Positions 1,580-62,918 of a stretch of 64,000 bases of DNA are shown here, one piece after another. The DNA lies in the NCBI GenBank assembly GCA_017404335.1, contig JAFRCN010000002.1:165821-229820 (forward strand), read 5' to 3'. The position numbers and the translations under genes are program-made. The notes beneath the pieces are model-generated. The model searched no databases. It was not told the origin of the DNA and saw only the letters and a program-made list of their open reading frames with translations. Each line of letters starts with the position of its first letter. Position 1 is the first letter of the stretch. Source of the stretch: Candidatus Saccharimonadota bacterium (lineage in GTDB: Bacteria; Patescibacteriota; Saccharimonadia; Saccharimonadales; Saccharimonadaceae).

Positions 1580-3502
1580 ATGAAGCGTTTGAAAATATTT
1601 TTAGGTTTAATACTAAGTTTTTTGTGTCTGCCGATAGGCAGTTGTTTTGCGGTAACCTCGACACAAGATTTTTATTTTGAAGATTTTACGGCGGATTATT
1701 ATTTAACAAAAGCGGAAGACGGGACGAGCAAATTACATGTTAAAGAGGTTCTGACGGCAGTTTTTCCGGAAACTAACCAAAATCATGGTATTACCAGGAC
1801 GATTCCTTTTACTAATCAAAATGGAAAAAACACCGTGGTAGAGAACGAGGCGGCGCTAAATTTGACGGTGCTACGAAACGGCGTGACGGAGCCGGTTAGC
1901 AAGATTGAAAAAGAAGACGATTATTATATGGTATATATAGGTAGTGCGAGTAGCTATGTGCACGGAAAGCAAATCTATACGTTAGAATATGATTATACCG
2001 ACGTGATTACGGAATTTGACAAAAACGGCAACAACGTTAGCGGGGTGGAAGACGTCGAGAAAGCTTTTCAGGAGCTATATTGGGATACGAACGGGACAGG
2101 TTGGAGCCAAAGGTTCGGATCCATAACTACGAGACTCCATCTTGACAACGACATTCTAGAAAAGACTAGTCCCGATGTTTCTTGTTATGTTGGAAGTTAC
2201 GGAGCGAAAGGAACTGGACGGTGCGCTTTTTCACAGACGGAAGATGGTTTTATCTTTTCGGCGGAAGATTTAAAGTCAAGAGAGAATCTTACTTTCGTTG
2301 TACAGTTTGAGGCGGGAAGTTTCGAGGTTGTCAATACAAAGAATTATCTCCTTATTATAATTCTAATCGTTCTAGCTATCGTCGCGACCATTATTATAAT
2401 ATATAGGATTAAAAAATATAAGAAAACGGCAGAAGAGAAAGATAAGCTTTACAGAGGTACTTTCGTCGCTCCGCAATACCAGCCAATGAGAGACTTAGAT
2501 GTTGCCGAGGCGGAACAGATTTATTTTAAGAAAACAGAAAAGTCGTATGTAGCAACACTTCTAGAACTCGCTGTAAGTAAAAAGATTTCCATTACCAAGG
2601 AGGAGAGCTCGAAAAGAAAAAAGAAATGGTCCGTGACCGTCGAAGTTGAACCGACAGAGTTAACCGAACCCCAAGTCGACATGCTAAAAATACTAAAGGG
2701 TGGTGGAGCGATTAATAAGGGCGACACTTTCCCGATAGAGAAGCATACTGCGACTAGGCATCTCGCCGATATAGCCGAAGACTACAGGAGACACGCTAGG
2801 GCTAGCCTCGGCAAAACGCATTATTTAGAAGAAGTAAAAGACTACACGAAAAAAACGATTATTAGCGCAACTACTGGGAATATTGTTGGTAGCGTTTTTG
2901 GTAAGCTCGTGTTTTGGAGTATTTTTACTGTCGTGATTTTTTATTATCTAGAATCTTTTATAAACTACAATGATTATTTTGTTGGAGGATTGCCTGCCCT
3001 GATTTTAATTATTGTTGTGCTTATAACTACTATCTCAGCCTCGACTTACTACAAGATGAAAACCAATCACTACGAGAGAATTACTGAGAACGGAGTCAAG
3101 GCTGTACGCTACCTAGAGGGGCTAGAACTATATATCGATATGGCGGAAGAGGACAGAATCAAGTTCCTACAATCTGTAGATGGAGCGGACACTACCGGAA
3201 AGGGGATTGTTAGGTTGTACGAAAAATTATTGCCTTGGGCGAGCCTGTTCGGCAACGAGGAGAGTTGGGTGAAGGAGCTCGCAAAATACTATGAGGTAGA
3301 AAATGTTTCGGATGGGTTAGATGCAGATTTTGTGCACGGGATGGTGGCCTCGAGTCTCTTTAGAGATATTAATCGCGCCGTCGTTTCGTCGACTGCCTAT
3401 CACGAGTCGTCTGGAGGTGGAGGAAGTTCTTGGTCGTCTGGCGGAGGCGGTGGCGGATTCTCTGGCGGTGGGGGCGGCGGAGGGGGCGGAGGGGGTTGGT
3501 AA
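1580..3502 (+). CDS. DUF2207 membrane protein with Gly-rich C-terminal tail
   Basis: 640 aa. N-terminal signal peptide (hydrophobic about 5-24, ending CFA) and an extracytoplasmic DUF2207 beta domain (about 30-250), then a membrane span near 255-277 (LLIIILIVLAIVATIIIIY). A cytoplasmic region follows, with two further spans near 435-490. The C-terminus ends in serine/glycine runs (SSGGGGSS, then a long run of Gly closed by Trp), the typical flexible tail of DUF2207/YciQ-like proteins. Function is unknown; the family is widespread in small-genome bacteria and assigned to the envelope. It has its own promoter in the 12-bp gap after the preceding gene. Confidence 0.8.
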   Translation: MKRLKIFLGLILSFLCLPIGSCFAVTSTQDFYFEDFTADYYLTKAEDGTSKLHVKEVLTAVFPETNQNHGITRTIPFTNQNGKNTVVENEAALNLTVLRNGVTEPVSKIEKEDDYYMVYIGSASSYVHGKQIYTLEYDYTDVITEFDKNGNNVSGVEDVEKAFQELYWDTNGTGWSQRFGSITTRLHLDNDILEKTSPDVSCYVGSYGAKGTGRCAFSQTEDGFIFSAEDLKSRENLTFVVQFEAGSFEVVNTKNYLLIIILIVLAIVATIIIIYRIKKYKKTAEEKDKLYRGTFVAPQYQPMRDLDVAEAEQIYFKKTEKSYVATLLELAVSKKISITKEESSKRKKKWSVTVEVEPTELTEPQVDMLKILKGGGAINKGDTFPIEKHTATRHLADIAEDYRRHARASLGKTHYLEEVKDYTKKTIISATTGNIVGSVFGKLVFWSIFTVVIFYYLESFINYNDYFVGGLPALILIIVVLITTISASTYYKMKTNHYERITENGVKAVRYLEGLELYIDMAEEDRIKFLQSVDGADTTGKGIVRLYEKLLPWASLFGNEESWVKELAKYYEVENVSDGLDADFVHGMVASSLFRDINRAVVSSTAYHESSGGGGSSWSSGGGGGGFSGGGGGGGGGGGW

Positions 3503-4147: not shown

Positions 4148-4195
4148 ACAAGAAATCTTTAATCTTGTAATTTCGAAGCATATAAAATTACCCAT

Positions 4196-4276
4196 ATAAA
4201 AATTACAACAATTACAGTTTTTGCGAGCAGAGCTCTGCTTCGCGAGCAAAAACATGACTAATGTTGTAATTTTTAT
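4196..4276. repeat. 81-bp cruciform-like inverted repeat
   Basis: Outer arms of 15 bp (ATAAAAATTACAACA at 4196-4210; its exact complement at 4262-4276) enclose a second nested hairpin GTTTTTGC...GCAAAAAC, whose core is the palindrome AGCAGAGCTCTGCT. It overlaps the stop codon of the GT4 gene and may end its transcript before the pgsA promoter. Not clearly a member of repeat families A or B. Confidence 0.8.
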
Positions 4277-5523
4277 CTTGGCGTAATTTTATCGCTGAGA
4301 AATGCAAGATTAAAGATTTCTTCTAGAATCTTAATACGATTTGAGATTAAGACTTCTTCGCGGTGGTTTAACATGGTTTCGGACATTTGTTGGATTTTTT
4401 CGGGGTGAGCGAGGAGGTCATTTAGAGCGTCCGCCATTTTTGCGGAGCTAGGTCCGGCGCTTTCGACGAAACTTCCTTTCGGAACCACTTCTTTCATGTC
4501 AGAATCACAAAAGAAGACTGGGACACCATAAGCTTCGGCTTCAATTAAAGTCATGCCAAAAGTATCGAAATTATAAGACACGAGAACATCGAGATGGGAA
4601 TTCCCGATTGCGTGGATTAGGCTATCAAACGGAACGTTGCCGTGAAAAATAACCCTTAGATTATTGCGGTCGGCGTAGCGTTTTGCGCGGTAAAAGTCTC
4701 CGCCTCCGCCGTAAACATCGAGACGATAGCGACCGCGAACTTTCTTTAAAGCCTTCAAAAACGGCATCATGCGTTTTTCGGCGGAAACCCGCGAATGCCA
4801 AATAATTCTGAGTTCTTCGCCTTCTTTAAGAGTTTTTATGGCTGGATTTTTCGGAAATTTAGCATCTGGGAAACCGTTGGGGAAGACTTTGATTTCTTTT
4901 TTGACACCGTAATGGATGAGTTTTTTGCGAAAATGTTCCGAGGGCGTTAAAACTAGATCCGCAAAATTAGCATGATTGACCATTAGAGTCCACATTTTAG
5001 CCTTCGAAAACTTATCGGCGAGATAATTGTCGCGGTGAACTGTTTTTGTGTGGGGTAAATACCAAGAATGAAACCAATTTAAAAGACAGGCGACGATGGT
5101 GCGAAAACCAAAAGGAATAATGTTCGCTTCTCCCATGTCTTCGCGCCCATGCATAACTTGGATAGTGGGGATATTTAGCTTTTTACCGAGCCGGAGGCCA
5201 GCAATTGAGCAGCCGGATTCGTAGTGTATATAATATATATCAAAGTTTTTAATCTCAGGATGGAATTTTAGAAGCCATTTTTCGATTATCTTGGGTCGGC
5301 GCGAAACCGGGGTTAGTCCACGAAAAGCGAGACGGCAACTCGGGACTGGGAAAATGTTTTCTTTCGCGAGCTCGGCTTTTTCGGCTTTGGATTTAGGGTA
5401 GCTAGTGGTAAAAATGTAGACTGTGTGGCCGTTTTTTTCGAGAGCGGATTTTTGCGCATTAATGGAGCTAGTGATACCGCCGGTCAAATCTAGGTAGCAG
5501 TCGGAAAAGAATGCAATCTTCAT
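4273..5523 (-). CDS. GT4 family glycosyltransferase
   Basis: 416 aa. Retaining GT-B enzyme that moves a sugar from a nucleotide or lipid donor. The N-terminal domain has the glycine-rich FSDCYLDLTGGITSS donor-side loop; the C-terminal domain has the WHSRVSAEKR motif, a VYGGGGDFYRAKR turn and the EAEAYGVPVFF sequence corresponding to the E-x7-E site. No signal peptide; expected to act on the inner membrane face. Closest general likeness is to glycolipid-forming enzymes (alpha-glucosyl-diacylglycerol synthase or PimA type), and the neighbouring pgsA fits a membrane glycolipid role, but the substrate is inferred. Leaderless start. Confidence 0.85.
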   Translation of the reverse strand: MKIAFFSDCYLDLTGGITSSINAQKSALEKNGHTVYIFTTSYPKSKAEKAELAKENIFPVPSCRLAFRGLTPVSRRPKIIEKWLLKFHPEIKNFDIYYIHYESGCSIAGLRLGKKLNIPTIQVMHGREDMGEANIIPFGFRTIVACLLNWFHSWYLPHTKTVHRDNYLADKFSKAKMWTLMVNHANFADLVLTPSEHFRKKLIHYGVKKEIKVFPNGFPDAKFPKNPAIKTLKEGEELRIIWHSRVSAEKRMMPFLKALKKVRGRYRLDVYGGGGDFYRAKRYADRNNLRVIFHGNVPFDSLIHAIGNSHLDVLVSYNFDTFGMTLIEAEAYGVPVFFCDSDMKEVVPKGSFVESAGPSSAKMADALNDLLAHPEKIQQMSETMLNHREEVLISNRIKILEEIFNLAFLSDKITPR

Positions 5524-5554: not shown

Positions 5555-5569
5555 CGAAATATTAACAAC

Positions 5570-5663
5570 TAATATCAAGAAGGGGCGAGGGACCGGCCTG
5601 ACGACCCCCTGCCAACCTAGCTAATGCCAAGGTGGTAATTCCGACCAAGAAAGGAAAGATATG
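5570..5663 (+). promoter_or_regulatory. SAM-I clan riboswitch controlling metK
   Basis: S-adenosylmethionine-sensing RNA. The sequence carries the conserved ATCAAGA, the kink-turn GAGGGAC followed by CGGCC, TGACGACCCC, GCCAACC, then AAGGTGGTAATTCC in the same order as the SAM-I consensus. The short closing helix pairs ATATC (5572-5576) with GATAT (5658-5662). The 3' strand of that helix includes the first two bases of the metK start codon and lies next to the AAGG Shine-Dalgarno (5651-5654). There is no terminator before the gene, so control is inferred to be translational: SAM binding closes the helix and hides the start site. Could be a SAM-I/IV subtype. Confidence 0.88.
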
Positions 5664-6626
5664 TTCTATCGAACTGCGGAGAGTGTTTCTCCGAAGCACC
5701 CAGATAAACTTTGTGACCGGATTTCCGACGCAATTTTGGATGCATACTTAAGCGCCGACCCGAATGCGCGCGTGGCGGCGGAGACTTGCGGAGGGCACGG
5801 CGTCGTGTTCGTAACCGGTGAAATTACCTCGACGGCGGACAGTATAGATATCCCGGCAATTGTGAAGCGAATCGCGGGTGAGAACGTCGAGGTTCATACT
5901 AAAATCGTCAAGCAGTCCCCAGAAATTGCGCAAGGTGTCGATACGGGCGGAGCGGGTGACCAGGGAATCATGATTGGCTACGCTTGCGACGAAACCGACG
6001 AAATGTTGCCGAGAGAAGTCGTACTTAGTCGTCGGCTAAATCAGTTTATTTACGAAAAATACCCGTTTGATGGTAAGACCCAAGTCACGATTGCGCCGGA
6101 TGGATCGATTGATTCTATTGTGGCAAGCTTCCAGAATGTTTCGCACGACGAACTAGAGTCTAAAGTGCGAGAATTTATCTCCGCGAATAATTTGAAAGGT
6201 AAGCTCGAGCTCCATATTAACCCGGCGGGAGACTGGAACCAAGGTGGATTTGATGCTGATACGGGGCTAACCGGGCGAAAGCTAATTGTCGACAACTACG
6301 GCCCTCGAGTTGCGATTGGTGGGGGATGTTACTCTGGTAAAGACCCGTCAAAAGTCGACCGTTCGGCCGCTTACATGGCAAGACGCGTAGCGGTAGATTA
6401 TCTAAGAAAGCGCCAGGCGCATGAGGTTTTAGTTCGGCTTGCCTATGCGATTGGCTATGCAGAGCCTCTAGAAAAGACTGTAATTATCGACGGGAAGCCA
6501 GAAGAAATCGAGGACTACGACCTAACTCCTAATGGGATTATTAAATATCTCGATTTGAAGCGACCAATTTACGAAAAAACTGCCGAGTATGGACATTACG
6601 GCGAAGGGTTCGACTGGGATAAATAA
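5661..6626 (+). CDS. metK: S-adenosylmethionine synthetase (short form)
   Basis: 321 aa, shorter than the usual 380-400 aa. Makes SAM from methionine and ATP. The N-terminal ESVSPKHPDKLCDRISDAILDA, the GGAGDQGIMIGYA hexapeptide-type phosphate loop, the active-site lysine region PDG and GGxDxDTGLTGRK, and GGGCYSGKDPSKVDRSAAYMAR are all recognisable and intact. Missing length is in inter-domain loops. It is the only gene here with a riboswitch leader and a clear SD, in contrast to its leaderless neighbours. The stop overlaps the start of a bidirectional terminator. Confidence 0.95.
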   Translation: MFYRTAESVSPKHPDKLCDRISDAILDAYLSADPNARVAAETCGGHGVVFVTGEITSTADSIDIPAIVKRIAGENVEVHTKIVKQSPEIAQGVDTGGAGDQGIMIGYACDETDEMLPREVVLSRRLNQFIYEKYPFDGKTQVTIAPDGSIDSIVASFQNVSHDELESKVREFISANNLKGKLELHINPAGDWNQGGFDADTGLTGRKLIVDNYGPRVAIGGGCYSGKDPSKVDRSAAYMARRVAVDYLRKRQAHEVLVRLAYAIGYAEPLEKTVIIDGKPEEIEDYDLTPNGIIKYLDLKRPIYEKTAEYGHYGEGFDWDK

Positions 6627-17281: not shown

Positions 17282-17358
17282 TTCGACGGGTCCTGTCGTC
17301 GCCTCCTCCCCCGCTCGGCTCTCGCGGGGGACCCCCTCCGGCGACACCACCCGTCGAA
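17282..17358 (+). repeat. Family A palindromic element, copy A1
   Basis: Outer arms TTCGACGGGT/ACCCGTCGAA; inner arm GTCGCC/GGCGAC; core CCCCCGC/GCGGGGG. Carries the family marks CGGGTCCTGTCG near the left end, ACCCCCTCC near the right, and CACCACCCG at the right end. Intergenic, just before the pth promoter. Confidence 0.9.
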
Positions 17359-31512: not shown

Positions 31513-31518
31513 ATTATA
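31513..31518 (-). promoter_or_regulatory. -10 box, leaderless mraY
   Basis: TATAAT on the minus strand, 6 nt before ATG 31506; overlaps the stop region of the PBP gene. Confidence 0.7.
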
Positions 31519-33313
31519 CCCCAGGTTTTAATTTTGTATAGTTTATTACGAAATTTGAGAGGTCGTCGAAAAGGCTCATGGCGTCACCGCTACCGACGGC
31601 CTGACCTTCGCCCCACATTTTGGTTAAGATGACGTATTCGGGTAGGGCGCCGGTCGGGGCGATGAAGCCGGCGTAGCCACCGACAAGTTCGCTCATCGTA
31701 TCGTCGTAAGCGCCGTTTTTGACGACCTGAGCGGTACCGGATTTACCGCCGATGTCGTAACCGGAACGGTCGATGCCGTAACGGGCTTTGTAATCGCGGT
31801 TATGAATCAGCATTTCGCGCATAGTGGCGGACGTCTCGTCGCTTAGAATCTTACTCTCAGCGGGTCCTGCCGGCGACTCTCCCTCCCCAAAATTTTTGCT
31901 TCGCAAAACATTTTGGGGTCCCCTTCCGTCGCCGTCACCCGCTGATGTAACATACTTAACCACCGAGGGAGTGCGCCAGTAGCCGCCGTTGACGACGGCG
32001 GAGAAGGCGGTGGCGGTTTGGATCATGGTTAGGCTGAGGTTTTGACCAAAAGTCATGTTGGCGTAAGTCGAATCGCGGCCCCAGCCTTCGTTCGGGTCGG
32101 GAATGAAGCCGGTTGCTTCGGAAATCTCGATACCAGTAGGTCGACCTAAGCGGAATTTATTATAATAATAGTCATAGAGTTTTTCGCGACCTTGCTGGGT
32201 GATTGAATTAGGGTTGCCGCCGAGGAGCCGAAGGGCCTGAATCGAGCCGGTATTAAGCGACCAATAGAGCGCGGTGCGCATGTCGATGGTCCCGTAGAGG
32301 CTTGAGCGAGTTTCGGCGTTCCAAATTTTCCAATCATCAACAACAGTGTAATGTTCGTTAAAATAGGTCGTCCAAGGAGTCATGGCGCCTTCTTCGAGGG
32401 CGGCGGAGAAGGCGAAAGTTTTGCAAATCGAAGCCGGCTCATAAGGAACGTCGGTCGTATAGTTTAGATAAATTGAAGCGTCTTCGACGTAAGCGTAATT
32501 GCCCGGATCGTAATTCGGGAGACTAGACATCGCAATGACTTCGCCGGTTTGGGGCTTCATAATAATCACCGACGCATTCGTCGCGACGCTAGAATTAAGG
32601 TGCTCCGCCATGATTTCTTCGGTTCCCTTTTCGAGACCGCGGTCGATACTAAGGACTACATCTTTGCCATCTTCGGCAGGAATTTTAATGTTGTCGTTAC
32701 CGATACTGAGGGCTACGTTATTGATATCGGAAGTGGTTTTTAGAAGACCGTTTTTACCAGACAGAAGCTCATTTAGGGAGCCTTCGACGCCGTATTGGCC
32801 GACGCCGTCCAGATTAACGAACCCGAGAAGCCCTGACGCCATTTCGCCTTCGGGATAGACCCGGCGATTGGTTTTTTGGAACCAGACGGCGCCAATTCCC
32901 TCTTCGGCGATTTTCTCGGCGATTTCGCGCGGAACATTTTTTGCGACAATTGCATATCTTAGACCTTCGGTTCCGTAGATTTTTTCTAGGTCGGCCGTAA
33001 TATAATCTTTGGCGTATGATGAAAGCGCGTCAAAAATTGCCGTTTTTTCGGTCACGGCGGGATCGATGATGATTTGATAAACGGTTTGATTTAAGACGAC
33101 CGGGGTGGGTTCGCCTTGATCCATCATGTAGATTTCGCCACGCCGGGCAGGGATTTCTTCGAGGAGGGTGTGCTTTTCGTCGGCCTTCGCAACCCAGGCG
33201 TCGTGCTCGATAATCTGGATGAAAAAAAGCCGCACCAAAATCACAGCGAGGGCGAAAACAACCACTCGATTTAAGATTTTAATGCGGGAAAATGATTTCT
33301 TATTCTGTGGCAT
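31514..33313 (-). CDS. ftsI: Penicillin-binding protein 2 / FtsI with an in-frame repeat insertion
   Basis: 599 aa from ATG 33313, which overlaps the end of the ftsL-like gene by 14 bp; an ATG at 33373 is possible. Transpeptidase that cross-links septal peptidoglycan. One membrane span (about 14-34), a dimerisation domain (RRGEIYMMD), then the catalytic domain: SxxK in EPASICKTF, SxN in WSLNTGS, KSGT in GGKSGTAQVV. Between SVVKYVTSAG and SKILSDETSATMREM lies about 28 residues (GDGRGPQNVLRSKNFGEGE...) encoded by repeat copy A2 read on its complementary strand. Homologues normally pass directly across this point. Confidence 0.93.
   Translation of the reverse strand: MPQNKKSFSRIKILNRVVVFALAVILVRLFFIQIIEHDAWVAKADEKHTLLEEIPARRGEIYMMDQGEPTPVVLNQTVYQIIIDPAVTEKTAIFDALSSYAKDYITADLEKIYGTEGLRYAIVAKNVPREIAEKIAEEGIGAVWFQKTNRRVYPEGEMASGLLGFVNLDGVGQYGVEGSLNELLSGKNGLLKTTSDINNVALSIGNDNIKIPAEDGKDVVLSIDRGLEKGTEEIMAEHLNSSVATNASVIIMKPQTGEVIAMSSLPNYDPGNYAYVEDASIYLNYTTDVPYEPASICKTFAFSAALEEGAMTPWTTYFNEHYTVVDDWKIWNAETRSSLYGTIDMRTALYWSLNTGSIQALRLLGGNPNSITQQGREKLYDYYYNKFRLGRPTGIEISEATGFIPDPNEGWGRDSTYANMTFGQNLSLTMIQTATAFSAVVNGGYWRTPSVVKYVTSAGDGDGRGPQNVLRSKNFGEGESPAGPAESKILSDETSATMREMLIHNRDYKARYGIDRSGYDIGGKSGTAQVVKNGAYDDTMSELVGGYAGFIAPTGALPEYVILTKMWGEGQAVGSGDAMSLFDDLSNFVINYTKLKPGV
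31857..31945 (+). repeat. Family A palindromic element, copy A2, inside ftsI
   Basis: 89 bp. Arms TCAGCGGGT/ACCCGCTGA, CGGCGAC/GTCGCCG; core CCCCAAAATTTTTGC TTCG plus complement ending TTTTGGGG. Same orientation as the other copies although the host gene runs the other way. It is in frame, with no stop created. Confidence 0.92.
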
Positions 33314-33647
33314 AGCCGGTGACGGTCGCGGCTTCCATGTTGGCGGCAACGGTAGAGGATTTAGCTGTCGCAACGGAGGTCAGACGCGCTTTCTCGACCG
33401 CAAGGTCGTCTTTTCTAGCGTTTAATTCAGTAATTTCAGTTTCAACGGAGGAAATTTCATAATCAAAACTAGTAGCCTTAGTGCCTTCAGCAACATAGAT
33501 GAGCCCAAAGACTAGGGTCAGCATACTGATAATTACAATTTGAGAGATGGAACCTAGACTTTTCGCGGTAAACCGAACAGTGTTCCTATTCCGGGCAAAG
33601 GTCGTCGTAGATACTGCACGTCGGCTGACGTAGGTTTGGTTAATCAT
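33300..33647 (-). CDS. FtsL-like septum protein
   Basis: 115 aa. Short polar N-terminus, one membrane span (about 34-54, QIVIISMLTLVFGLIYVA), then a heptad-rich coiled coil (about 60-95, EISSVETEITELNARKDDLAVEKARL). Its size, topology and position between rsmH and the PBP gene match FtsL/FtsB-type bitopic division proteins, which link FtsQ to FtsW-FtsI. Sequence conservation in this family is always weak. Co-transcribed and overlapping with the PBP gene. Confidence 0.75.
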   Translation of the reverse strand: MINQTYVSRRAVSTTTFARNRNTVRFTAKSLGSISQIVIISMLTLVFGLIYVAEGTKATSFDYEISSVETEITELNARKDDLAVEKARLTSVATAKSSTVAANMEAATVTGYATE

Positions 33648-44546: not shown

Positions 44547-44722
44547 AGAGCAAGCCCCATTTTTTGTTCGCTTTACGCTACGCGCCAGGATGATTTTGTG
44601 TCATTTTTTTACGGAAATTTTCGCGTCTCACGCCGGATGGGGGTCTCGCTGCGAAAATTTCCTAAAATGACCCAAGATCATCTTGGGCTTGCTTTATGCT
44701 CACAAAAATTGGAGCCTGCTCT
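44547..44722 (+). repeat. Family B hairpin element, copy B2
   Basis: 176 bp: outer AGAGCAAGCCCCATTTTTTGT pairing with ACAAAAATTGGAGCCTGCTCT, middle TCATTTT/AAAATGA, inner CGGAAATTTTCGC/GCGAAAATTTCC. Core GTCTCACGCCGGATGG then GGGTCTCG identical to B1; right arm GGGCTTGCTTTATGCTCAC. Lies between divergent genes. Confidence 0.9.
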
Positions 44723-44759: not shown

Positions 44760-46793
44760 ATGTATTATGAGGTGATACCGGGGGGAAGGGTAGAGAGGTT
44801 GACGTATGATTTTGATGGCGATTCCCTGGTACCGGGGCAAATTGTTTTGGTGCCGGTCGGGAAAAGGGTCGTTCCGGGAGTAGTTGTTAAAAAAGTTGCG
44901 CAACCGGAATTTAAGACTCGGACGATTTTGAAAGTTTTGTATTCAAAGGTGTTGCCGACACATCTTTTGAAAACAATTGAGTTTATCCATGAATATTATA
45001 ATGTCCCTTCGGGGTTGGCGGTGTCTTTAGTTTTGCCCAAAGGAGTCGAAAAGAAACGGAGGAAAACCGAACAAATGTTCGGTATCAATCTGTCGACGGG
45101 TCCTGTCGCGCCCTCCTCCCCCAAAATTTTGCAAAGCAAACATTTTGGGGGTCCCCCTCCGGGCGCACCACCCGTCGACGAAATTTATAAAACCGAACAG
45201 GGTTCGAGTTTTCCGGAAATTCGTCTTAATGTGGCGCAGAAAAAGGCGCTAGAAGGCCTCTACAAGGCGCCGGGAGCCACGCGACTGCTTCATGGCGTGA
45301 CCGGAAGCGGAAAGACTAATATATACCTTAAAATGGCTTCTAGGGCCCTTTCCGAGCAAAAATCCACGATACTTTTAGTGCCGGAAATCGCTTTAACAGG
45401 CCAACTTGTTCGGGTTTTTCGGGAGGTTTTTGGCGGAAAAGTGGTTTTAATTCATTCTCGACAGACTGAAGCGGAAAGACATTTGATTTTTAATTCCCTA
45501 CTTGAAACAGAGGAGCCGAGAATTGTGGTCGGGCCACGATCGGCGTTGTTTGCGCCGGTTTCGAACCTCGGGCTGATTTTAATCGACGAGGAGCATGAGT
45601 CGACCTACTATCAGGAGAATGCGCCGAAGTATTCGGCGATTCGGGTAGCGAGTTTTATGGCGAAAACTGGGGGATTTCCGCTGATTCTAGGGTCGGCGAC
45701 GCCGACTTTGGAGGATTATTATTTAGCTTCGAGGGCAGGGTCGGTGGTGGAGCTAACAGAAAAGGCGAAGGAGGAGGCGATTCGGCCGGAAATTCGGATA
45801 ATTGACTTTAAAAACAGGGATAATTATACGAAAAATAAGTATTTTTCTAATTCCCTTTTATCGGCGATTTCGGCGAATTTAGAACAGGGGCGACAGACAT
45901 TGATTTTTCATAATCGACGGGGATCATCGCCTCTTACGATCTGCGAAAACTGCGGTGAGGAGATTCTCTGCCCGAATTGTTATTTACCTCTGACTTTGCA
46001 CGCCGATGAATATGTATTACATTGTCATACATGCGGTTTTTCGCTTAAGGTGCCGGTCGCTTGCCCAAAGTGTGGGACGCCGGGGCTGGTTCATAAGGGG
46101 TTTGGGACAAAGTTGCTAGAGTCGGAGCTTCTTAAGCTTTTCCCGAAGGCGAGGATAAGGAGATTCGACGCCGATAATAAGAAAGGCGAGGGGCTAGAAG
46201 CGGTTTATACTTCCGTAAGAGACGGAGAGGTAGATATTCTCGTTGGGACGCAGACGCTCGCGAAGGGGTTGGATTTGCCGAGGCTTGCGACGGTCGGGGT
46301 GGTACAGGCGGACGCGGGGCTGTCGCTACCAGATTTTGCGGCGGAGGAGCGGACTTTTCAGCTACTCACTCAGGTAATCGGGCGGGTCGGGAGGGGACAT
46401 CTCGACTCGGCGGAGGTGTTTATCCAGACTTTTCGGCCGGAACATCCGGTCCTCGGGTTTGCGGTCCAAGAGGATTATCGAGGTTTTTATGAATATGCCT
46501 TAAAAATGCGGCAAAAATCAGGCTTTCCGCCGTTTAAATTTATTATGAGGCTGGAGATTACCATGAAAACAGAAGCAACTACGCTTCGAAAAGTACGAGA
46601 AACGGCGAAAGAACTGAGCTTAGACAGCCGGCTTCTAGTTTCGTCGCCACTACCGGCTTTTCATGAGCGGACGGCGGCGGGGTTTACTTGGCAGATTATC
46701 GTCCGGAGTCGGTCGCGGAAGGCACTTTTAGAGGCTTGTGAGGGGCTAGACGCTAGTTTTAAGGTTACTCTGGACCCGCCTTCTCTGTTATAG
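44760..46793 (+). CDS. priA: Primosomal helicase PriA with an in-frame repeat insertion
   Basis: 677 aa. Restarts stalled replication forks. N-terminal 3'-DNA binding domain (about 1-105), then a 30-residue segment (STGPVAPSSPKILQ ... GAPPVDE) encoded by repeat copy A3. The helicase follows: HGVTGSGKTNIYL Walker A, LIDEEHESTYYQ, LGSATPTLED, and the zinc module CENCGEEILCPNC...CHTCG...CPKCG with all eight cysteines. LVGTQTLAKGLDLPR and QVIGRVGRG complete it. The insertion falls exactly in the inter-domain linker, so function is probably kept. Confidence 0.95.
   Translation: MYYEVIPGGRVERLTYDFDGDSLVPGQIVLVPVGKRVVPGVVVKKVAQPEFKTRTILKVLYSKVLPTHLLKTIEFIHEYYNVPSGLAVSLVLPKGVEKKRRKTEQMFGINLSTGPVAPSSPKILQSKHFGGPPPGAPPVDEIYKTEQGSSFPEIRLNVAQKKALEGLYKAPGATRLLHGVTGSGKTNIYLKMASRALSEQKSTILLVPEIALTGQLVRVFREVFGGKVVLIHSRQTEAERHLIFNSLLETEEPRIVVGPRSALFAPVSNLGLILIDEEHESTYYQENAPKYSAIRVASFMAKTGGFPLILGSATPTLEDYYLASRAGSVVELTEKAKEEAIRPEIRIIDFKNRDNYTKNKYFSNSLLSAISANLEQGRQTLIFHNRRGSSPLTICENCGEEILCPNCYLPLTLHADEYVLHCHTCGFSLKVPVACPKCGTPGLVHKGFGTKLLESELLKLFPKARIRRFDADNKKGEGLEAVYTSVRDGEVDILVGTQTLAKGLDLPRLATVGVVQADAGLSLPDFAAEERTFQLLTQVIGRVGRGHLDSAEVFIQTFRPEHPVLGFAVQEDYRGFYEYALKMRQKSGFPPFKFIMRLEITMKTEATTLRKVRETAKELSLDSRLLVSSPLPAFHERTAAGFTWQIIVRSRSRKALLEACEGLDASFKVTLDPPSLL
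45066..45083. repeat. Perfect palindrome inside priA
   Basis: ACCGAAC-AAAT-GTTCGGT, 8 bp before copy A3. Resembles a Gram-positive LexA/DinR box, but it lies in coding sequence. The flanking AAAACCGAACA recurs at 45189-45199 on the other side of A3. Confidence 0.5.
45092..45179 (+). repeat. Family A palindromic element, copy A3, inside priA
   Basis: 88 bp. Arms GTCGACGGGT/ACCCGTCGAC, GCGCCC/GGGCGC; core CCCCCAAAATTTTGC/...CATTTTGGGGG. Flanked by an 11-nt direct repeat AAAACCGAACA (45063-45073 and 45189-45199). Confidence 0.93.
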
Positions 46794-51892: not shown

Positions 51893-51983
51893 GTCGACGG
51901 GTCCTGCCGGCTCCTCTCCCTCCCCAAAATTTTTGCTTCGCAAAACATTTTGGGGTCCCCTTCCGGAGCCGTCACCCGTCGAC
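51893..51983 (+). repeat. Family A palindromic element, copy A4, in infB leader
   Basis: 91 bp. Arms GTCGACGGGT/ACCCGTCGAC, CGGCTCC/GGAGCCG; core nearly identical to A2. In the 5' leader of infB, which reads through it from the other strand. Confidence 0.93.
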
Positions 51984-55149: not shown

Positions 55150-55319
55150 TAAACTTAAGACTCGTTCGCGCTTCACTTCGCACCGGGACAAGTTTTTGTG
55201 AAATTTTTAACGGAAAATTTGCCGTCTCACGCCGGATGGTGGTCTCGCGGACAAATTTTCCTAAATTTCACAAAAACTTTCTCGGGCTCGTTCAATGCTC
55301 ACTCGCTCTTAAGTTTATT
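55148..55319 (+). repeat. Family B hairpin element, copy B3
   Basis: 172 bp: outer AATAAACTTAAGA/TCTTAAGTTTATT, middle GTGAAATTT/AAATTTCAC, inner GAAAATTTG/CAAATTTTC. Core GTCTCACGCCGGATGG then TGGTCTCG (one base changed from B1/B2); right arm GGGCTCGTTCAATGCTCAC. Between convergent genes, overlapping the GT2 stop. Confidence 0.9.
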
Positions 55320-61224: not shown

Positions 61225-61301
61225 CGCAACGGGTCCTGTCGTCGCCTCCTTCCCCGCGAAGATGTCGCGGGGGACCCCCTCCGGCGACACCACCCGTTGC
61301 G
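61225..61301 (+). repeat. Family A palindromic element, copy A5, in rpsA leader
   Basis: 77 bp. Arms CGCAACGGGT/ACCCGTTGCG, GTCGCC/GGCGAC; core CCCCGCG/CGCGGGG. Between the rpsA promoter (TATAAT on the minus strand near 61339) and its start codon. Confidence 0.93.
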
Positions 61302-62817: not shown

Positions 62818-62918
62818 CCTAGCGGGTCCTGCCGGATGCTTCCCTCCCGCGGCATCCTCTCGGCGCTAAAGCGCCTGCGAGCTCCGCGGGAGCCCTTCCA
62901 CATCCGTCACCCGCTAGG
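62818..62918 (+). repeat. Family A palindromic element, copy A6, in KGG-gene leader
   Basis: 101 bp, the longest copy. Arms CCTAGCGGGT/ACCCGCTAGG, CGGATG/CATCCG; core TCCCGCGG/CCGCGGGA carrying a further GGCGC-TAAA-GCGCC hairpin. Confidence 0.93.

Follow-up and report, generated by a model that had tools for sequence, protein, structure and literature searches.

An In-Frame Palindromic Element in priA

In a gut bacterium of the Candidatus Saccharimonadota, priA, an essential gene for DNA repair, carries a palindromic repeat within its reading frame, bordered on both sides by the same 11 nucleotides. This raises the question how the repeat came to lie there, and whether a target was duplicated on its arrival. 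The locus was analysed in a window of 64,000 nucleotides (G000:C6:165821-229820) from a genome (G000) of 686 kb. Probably, the repeat is a non-autonomous mobile hairpin inserted in a disordered linker of PriA, being one copy of a dispersed family that is translated with its host gene and spreads at the DNA level.

The 677-residue frame of PriA stays open through the element, with neither stop nor frameshift, as the original prediction had held. The insert occupies residues 111-141. Since Pfam places the end of 3'BD at residue 93 and the start of DEAD at residue 159, it lies in the linker between the DNA-binding and helicase domains. In an AlphaFold model with 25 relatives, residues 96-149 have a predicted local confidence (pLDDT) below 50, whereas the flanking domains reach approximately 80-93; the insert is thus predicted to be located in a floppy, disordered linker. 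The ends of the element (± 2 nt) are set by a 99%-identical copy on another contig (C5:65247-65337), which matches exactly the stretch 45090-45181, and by the conservation of the flanks, which in 163 copies stops 8 nt outside GGGT/ACCC. The segment is one of several copies of a repeat that is spread across the genome. The element is an imperfect palindrome overall, with a core from GGGT to ACCC at 45098-45173. Its size had been given as 88 bp or about 30 residues; the insertion is upheld, while the repeat unit measures approximately 92 nt and the net gain compared to insert-free relatives is 96 nt (32 residues).

PriA was compared across 100 genomes of the same genus. Many of these proteins lack the insert, as had been anticipated, and in five relatives (L043, L044, L047, L053, L054) the 106 nt of the window correspond to only about 10 nt. 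The two 11-mers, AAAACCGAACA, are indeed present around the element and encode KTEQ twice. They had been taken for a duplicated target, of which empty sites would keep one copy. However, the five insert-free relatives carry both copies, 30 nt apart. The direct repeat is therefore ancestral host sequence, both copies being ancestral because the PriA linker ancestrally encodes KTEQMFG...KTEQ/H, and its interpretation as a target-site duplication is rejected.

Architecture of the Element

All copies have a base in common, CGGGT-CCTGYC...RYC-ACCCG, and stems that vary but keep Watson-Crick pairing. From left to right, CGGGT-CCTGYC is followed by a variable inner stem, an apical half and the complementary stem, and the series closes with RYC-ACCCG; approximately 4-5 variable paired bases lie outside (Table 1). 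In an alignment of 115 distinct sequences, 94.9% of the cells are paired, there are 347 double changes compared to a shuffle mean of 102, and the covariation score is 0.385 compared to 0.137; as this alignment was fitted to the structure, its pairing counts lean towards it. In the inner stems of the 163 copies found by regular expression (978 cells), 893 cells are Watson-Crick, 8 are G-T and 17 are A-C, and flips from G-C to C-G are common. If selection acted on the RNA, G-U pairs should remain; the small number of G-T cells therefore suggests that stem pairing matters in DNA. Moreover, six G000 copies with an identical apical half have four different inner stems and four different outer stems, which suggests that the two arms are rewritten together.

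Table 1. Coordinates in the window of priA, its element and further copies of the family.
Feature	Position	Strand	Remarks
priA, host gene	44760..46793	+	Open reading frame, 677 residues; Pfam PriA_3primeBD 15-93, DEAD 159-318, Helicase_C, PriA_C, Zn_ribbon_PriA
AAAACCGAACA, first host copy (KTEQ)	45063..45073	+	Outside the element; found in insert-free relatives
Palindromic element in priA	45090..45181	+	About 92 nt, ends ± 2 nt; translated as LSTGPVAPSSPKILQSKHFGGPPPGAPPVDE
Outer stem, left arm	45093..45101	+	TCGAC variable, GGGT fixed; pairs with 45170-45178; 80-96% Watson-Crick in 163 copies, with double changes
Internal loop CCTGYC	45102..45107	+	Left side of the signature; nearly invariant in all copies, other lineages included
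Inner stem, left arm	45108..45113	+	GCGCCC, variable; pairs with 45161-45166
Apical half	45114..45160	+	TCCT-CCCCC-hairpin-GGGGG-TCCCCCTCC; run lengths vary between subfamilies
Inner stem, right arm	45161..45166	+	GGGCGC
Internal loop RYC	45167..45169	+	Right side of the signature; conserved
Outer stem, right arm	45170..45178	+	ACCC fixed, GTCGA variable
AAAACCGAACA, second host copy (KTEQ)	45189..45199	+	Not a target duplication; found in insert-free L043, L044, L047, L053, L054
Family copy	17288..17352	+	Between genes
Family copy	31862..31940	+	In frame and antisense inside ftsI-like (penicillin-binding protein) gene, ~31517-33373 (-)
Family copy	51899..51977	+	Upstream of infB-like gene
Family copy	61231..61295	+	Near 5' end of S1-domain gene
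Family copy	62824..62912	+	Longer apical hairpin

A conserved fold may also point to a functional structured RNA, such as a regulator, a processing site or a ribozyme, that is selected in transcripts and whose spread is secondary. The fold is strong (for the priA element -60.7 kcal/mol with z -8.3 as RNA, and z -7.9 as DNA, both compared to shuffles) and the internal loops are conserved. Nevertheless, G-T cells are no more frequent than A-C cells, whereas RNA stems usually tolerate G-U. Copies additionally occur in both orientations relative to genes, the Rfam covariance models give no match to the element, and 47% of the same-genus genomes do not have it. Altogether, a structured RNA is an improbable explanation.

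REP sequences are short, dispersed, asymmetric hairpins, and the present hairpins, with their fixed base, resemble them in each of these respects. They could accordingly be REP/REPIN-like elements moved by a Y1 transposase of the RAYT or IS200 type. However, Y1_Tnp gives no match in any of 20 element-rich genomes (G000 and 19 others), while positive controls are matched, and it is present in two genomes that are free of the element. The absence of Y1 from these 20 genomes does not support a REP/RAYT model, which is unlikely to be correct.

The apical half shows some variation of its own. In Saccharibacteria copies (e.g., window 45118-45156), the lengths of a C run, a G run and a second C run co-vary as 5/5/5, 4/4/4 or 3/3/3; the G run can pair with only one of the two C runs at a time. 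Two deletion derivatives (L123 2770-2823 and L253 61-116) have kept the base and the inner stem and have lost the apical hairpin.

Copies in Other Genes

The G000 genome contains about two dozen copies of the family. Nine of them are coding or lie at a coding end, in both orientations and in several frames. Judged by gene names that, except for priA, were read from translations, in-frame copies are found in priA, cysS, queA and tgt, in the genes of an rRNA pseudouridine synthase and a cysteine desulfurase, in an ftsI-like gene and in the 5' part of a tlyA-like gene. An nrdR-like gene has a copy at its 3' end. Orthologues in six relatives include clean empty sites, e.g., nifS and rluB in both G023 and G059, and cysS in G036; other orthologues have different palindromic inserts at the same loop. 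Across the genus, 62 of 161 copies lie inside open reading frames of at least 180 residues, on both strands. The sense frames vary (GPVA..., GSCR...) and antisense frames are used as well. Selection for stop-free sequence is not seen in these 161 copies, which have 3.92 open frames out of 6 compared to 3.86 in shuffles. Open frames thus show no excess over shuffled sequence, and the coding capacity is explained by composition and by selection on the host gene.

The openness of the coding copies bears on the possibility that the insert is self-spliced from the mRNA or bypassed by the ribosome, so that the peptide is never made. Bypassing hairpins exist in other systems, and the element does place a very stable hairpin inside coding sequence. 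Removal or skipping would, however, not require copies to be open and to keep the frame, and the core lengths have no fixed remainder modulo 3 while the host genes stay in frame; this explanation is very improbable. Finally, the genus PriA linkers differ widely in length and many of their sequences are unrelated, but the idea of a hypervariable linker with lineage-specific sequence and no insertion at all is refuted by the same DNA repeat elsewhere in the genome, once at 99% identity, and in further genes with insert-free orthologues, which leaves this idea practically no chance.

Further palindromic families occupy the same loops in the priA linkers of L029, L030, L040, L049, L050 and L055 and in the cysteine desulfurase gene of L403, L407 and L412. 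Several families being present in the same protein loops of relatives, these linkers can be regarded as shared insertion hot spots for different families. In the L030 priA linker, the base of the present family (GGGTCCTGACG...CGTCACCC) encloses a hairpin of a different family, as if nested. In queA (L013, ~3339-3400), a fragment, GGCAGGACCCGC, adjoins a sense copy; it appears to be the end of an earlier antisense copy in that position, which G080 and G054 have retained. The peptide SERSLAPVVTG.GRSVF occurs in L210 (G000 queA, residues 111-137) and in L408/L419 (the cysteine desulfurase gene of G036). Present in two genes of two species, it is another mobile in-frame insert family.

Distribution Across Lineages

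A covariance model of the element, R1, finds copies in 53 of the 100 same-genus genomes, with 1 to 26 copies each. Its strong matches among named records are Candidatus Saccharibacteria metagenome assemblies, many of them from ruminant gut. R1 also matches two Solirubrobacterales genomes (9 and 16 matches, E-values up to 0.1) and an assembly labelled Bacillota (11 matches). The signature pattern CGGGTCCTGYC-N40-70-RYCACCCG, with the reversed pattern as control, is found in 29 of 151 genomes of the order Solirubrobacterales (up to 24 exact matches; controls near zero) and in 13 of 380 Patescibacteria genomes (controls zero). Of 40 genomes of other groups, the Bacillota-labelled genome alone has multiple copies. 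Chance accounts for the weak matches in Streptomyces and in most other genomes of high GC content; the reversed controls of the full signature are about zero.

At the loci that were fetched, a simple stem test is passed by 19 of 20 matches from the order Solirubrobacterales, 47 of 48 from Saccharibacteria, 7 of 12 from Patescibacteria and 1 of 42 from viral contigs. The Bacillota-labelled copies mostly fail the strict stem test. Therefore this lineage and the Patescibacteria are less certain. A Solirubrobacterales protein read as 2-oxoacid dehydrogenase E2 has two in-frame copies in its linkers, and one Patescibacteria copy lies inside a DNA-ligase-like protein. No blastn match to the window copy is found in phages or plasmids. 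The pattern matches 46 stretches of viral contigs, but of the 42 that were re-found, one has the outer pairing and none the inner stem; with the hairpin missing, these matches are due to chance, and carriage by phages or plasmids is rejected. Judging from these comparisons of sequence, the elements apparently form a multi-lineage class of protein-coding palindromes.

Mobility and Proposed Mechanism

Mobility of the element is indicated by its copy number together with empty sites and a patchy distribution. The genomes themselves display the insertion, its absence in many relatives, the kept frame and the dispersed family with its fixed base. The route by which the element spreads can be outlined as follows. 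At the DNA level, a protein would recognize the asymmetric hairpin base in single-stranded or extruded DNA, the invariant base being the best candidate recognition site. Both stem arms would be rewritten together, e.g., if one arm served as the template for the other in fold-back (template-switch) copying. An insert in priA would be translated together with the gene and tolerated because the linker is floppy, while copies landing out of frame or in structured regions would be removed by selection. The element appears to bring no evident benefit to its host.

Several points weigh against a mobile, translated hairpin. No mobilizing enzyme was identified, Y1 having been sought in the 20 element-rich genomes. 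Neither transposition nor a site polymorphic within a species was seen with one genome per species. No target-site duplication was found: the priA repeat is ancestral, and conservation in the flanks of the 163 copies does not extend past about 8 nt, although duplications of 2-4 nt would escape. In addition, it is only the open frame that argues for translation of the PriA insert, and the apparent rewriting of stems could reflect old lineages whose apical halves were homogenized by gene conversion.

A more far-reaching proposal is put forward tentatively. The elements may be multi-phylum mobile DNA hairpins, defined only by the structure and sequence of their base (CGGGT-CCTGYC/RYC-ACCCG) and recognized as single-stranded hairpins by a non-Y1 enzyme. 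Their stems would be re-templated with perfect complementarity while being copied, each copy thus bringing new stems and new coding sequence to be absorbed into protein linkers.

Comparison With Known Systems

According to published work, Rickettsia palindromic elements (RPEs) insert in frame into conserved genes (PMC2229807); the peptide that they encode is described as conserved (PMC10969869). RPEs and similar Wolbachia elements share with the present ones that they are short dispersed palindromes entering conserved protein genes in frame, with several families per genome and no known mobilizing enzyme (PMC2229807, PMC10969869). The parallel with RPEs that had been drawn for priA holds for behaviour, i.e., in-frame entry into conserved genes; relatedness is at most putative. 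Like RPEs, the nine coding or coding-end G000 copies are dispersed palindromes in frame in protein genes, with insert-free orthologues at several sites. In contrast, they do not encode one conserved peptide from a preferred frame but are read in both orientations and in several sense and antisense frames. They additionally differ, in a comparison with RPEs by description only, in their signature, CGGGT-CCTGYC...RYC-ACCCG, with hypervariable Watson-Crick stems, and in their far wider range, comprising Patescibacteria, Solirubrobacterales and a Bacillota-labelled genome. By analogy the elements behave like RPEs, the likeness being one of behaviour and not a demonstrated family membership.

REP/REPIN/BIME sequences with RAYT are likewise short asymmetric hairpins in many copies, whereas the present elements are often intragenic instead of extragenic and occur without a Y1 transposase in the 20 element-rich genomes. 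Bacterial miniature inverted-repeat transposable elements (ERIC, Correia/NEMIS, RUP), some of which are intragenic (PMC2229807), are small non-autonomous repeats as well, but have symmetric terminal inverted repeats compared to the asymmetric hairpin base without visible target duplication described here. A parent autonomous transposon sharing the ends was not seen near copies, although no systematic search was made. In nematomorph mitochondria, genes contain in-frame inverted repeats with near-perfect arms, for which template switching has been proposed to keep the arms matched (PMC6649704). The in-frame position and matched arms are common to both systems; the nematomorph repeats are perfect and have no dispersed conserved core, in contrast to the mobile copies with a fixed signature.

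No earlier description for Saccharibacteria or Solirubrobacterales was found in a literature search covering few subscription journals, and the class is apparently undescribed so far. Coding palindromes that lie in frame have mostly been portrayed as peculiar to Rickettsia and Wolbachia. The class defined by the present signature behaves likewise in the reduced genomes of Saccharibacteria and extends to Actinomycetota and perhaps to further phyla, which puts many independent systems at hand for finding the mobilizing enzyme. The origin of new protein segments from mobile DNA and the copying of hairpin arms from each other are thereby made testable, and gene annotation and protein modelling in such genomes should expect linker inserts.

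Other Features of the Window

A second, unrelated palindromic repeat family, GAAATTTTCGC...GCGAAAATTTC, has a conserved interior and is present at 44605-44703, just upstream of priA, and at 55204-55302, the copies being 77% identical. An inverted repeat at 4150-4322 has 61-nt arms that are 74% complementary and lie 51 nt apart. Lastly, a SAM riboswitch (RF00162, 56 bits) is found at 5569-5665 in this reduced Saccharibacteria genome.
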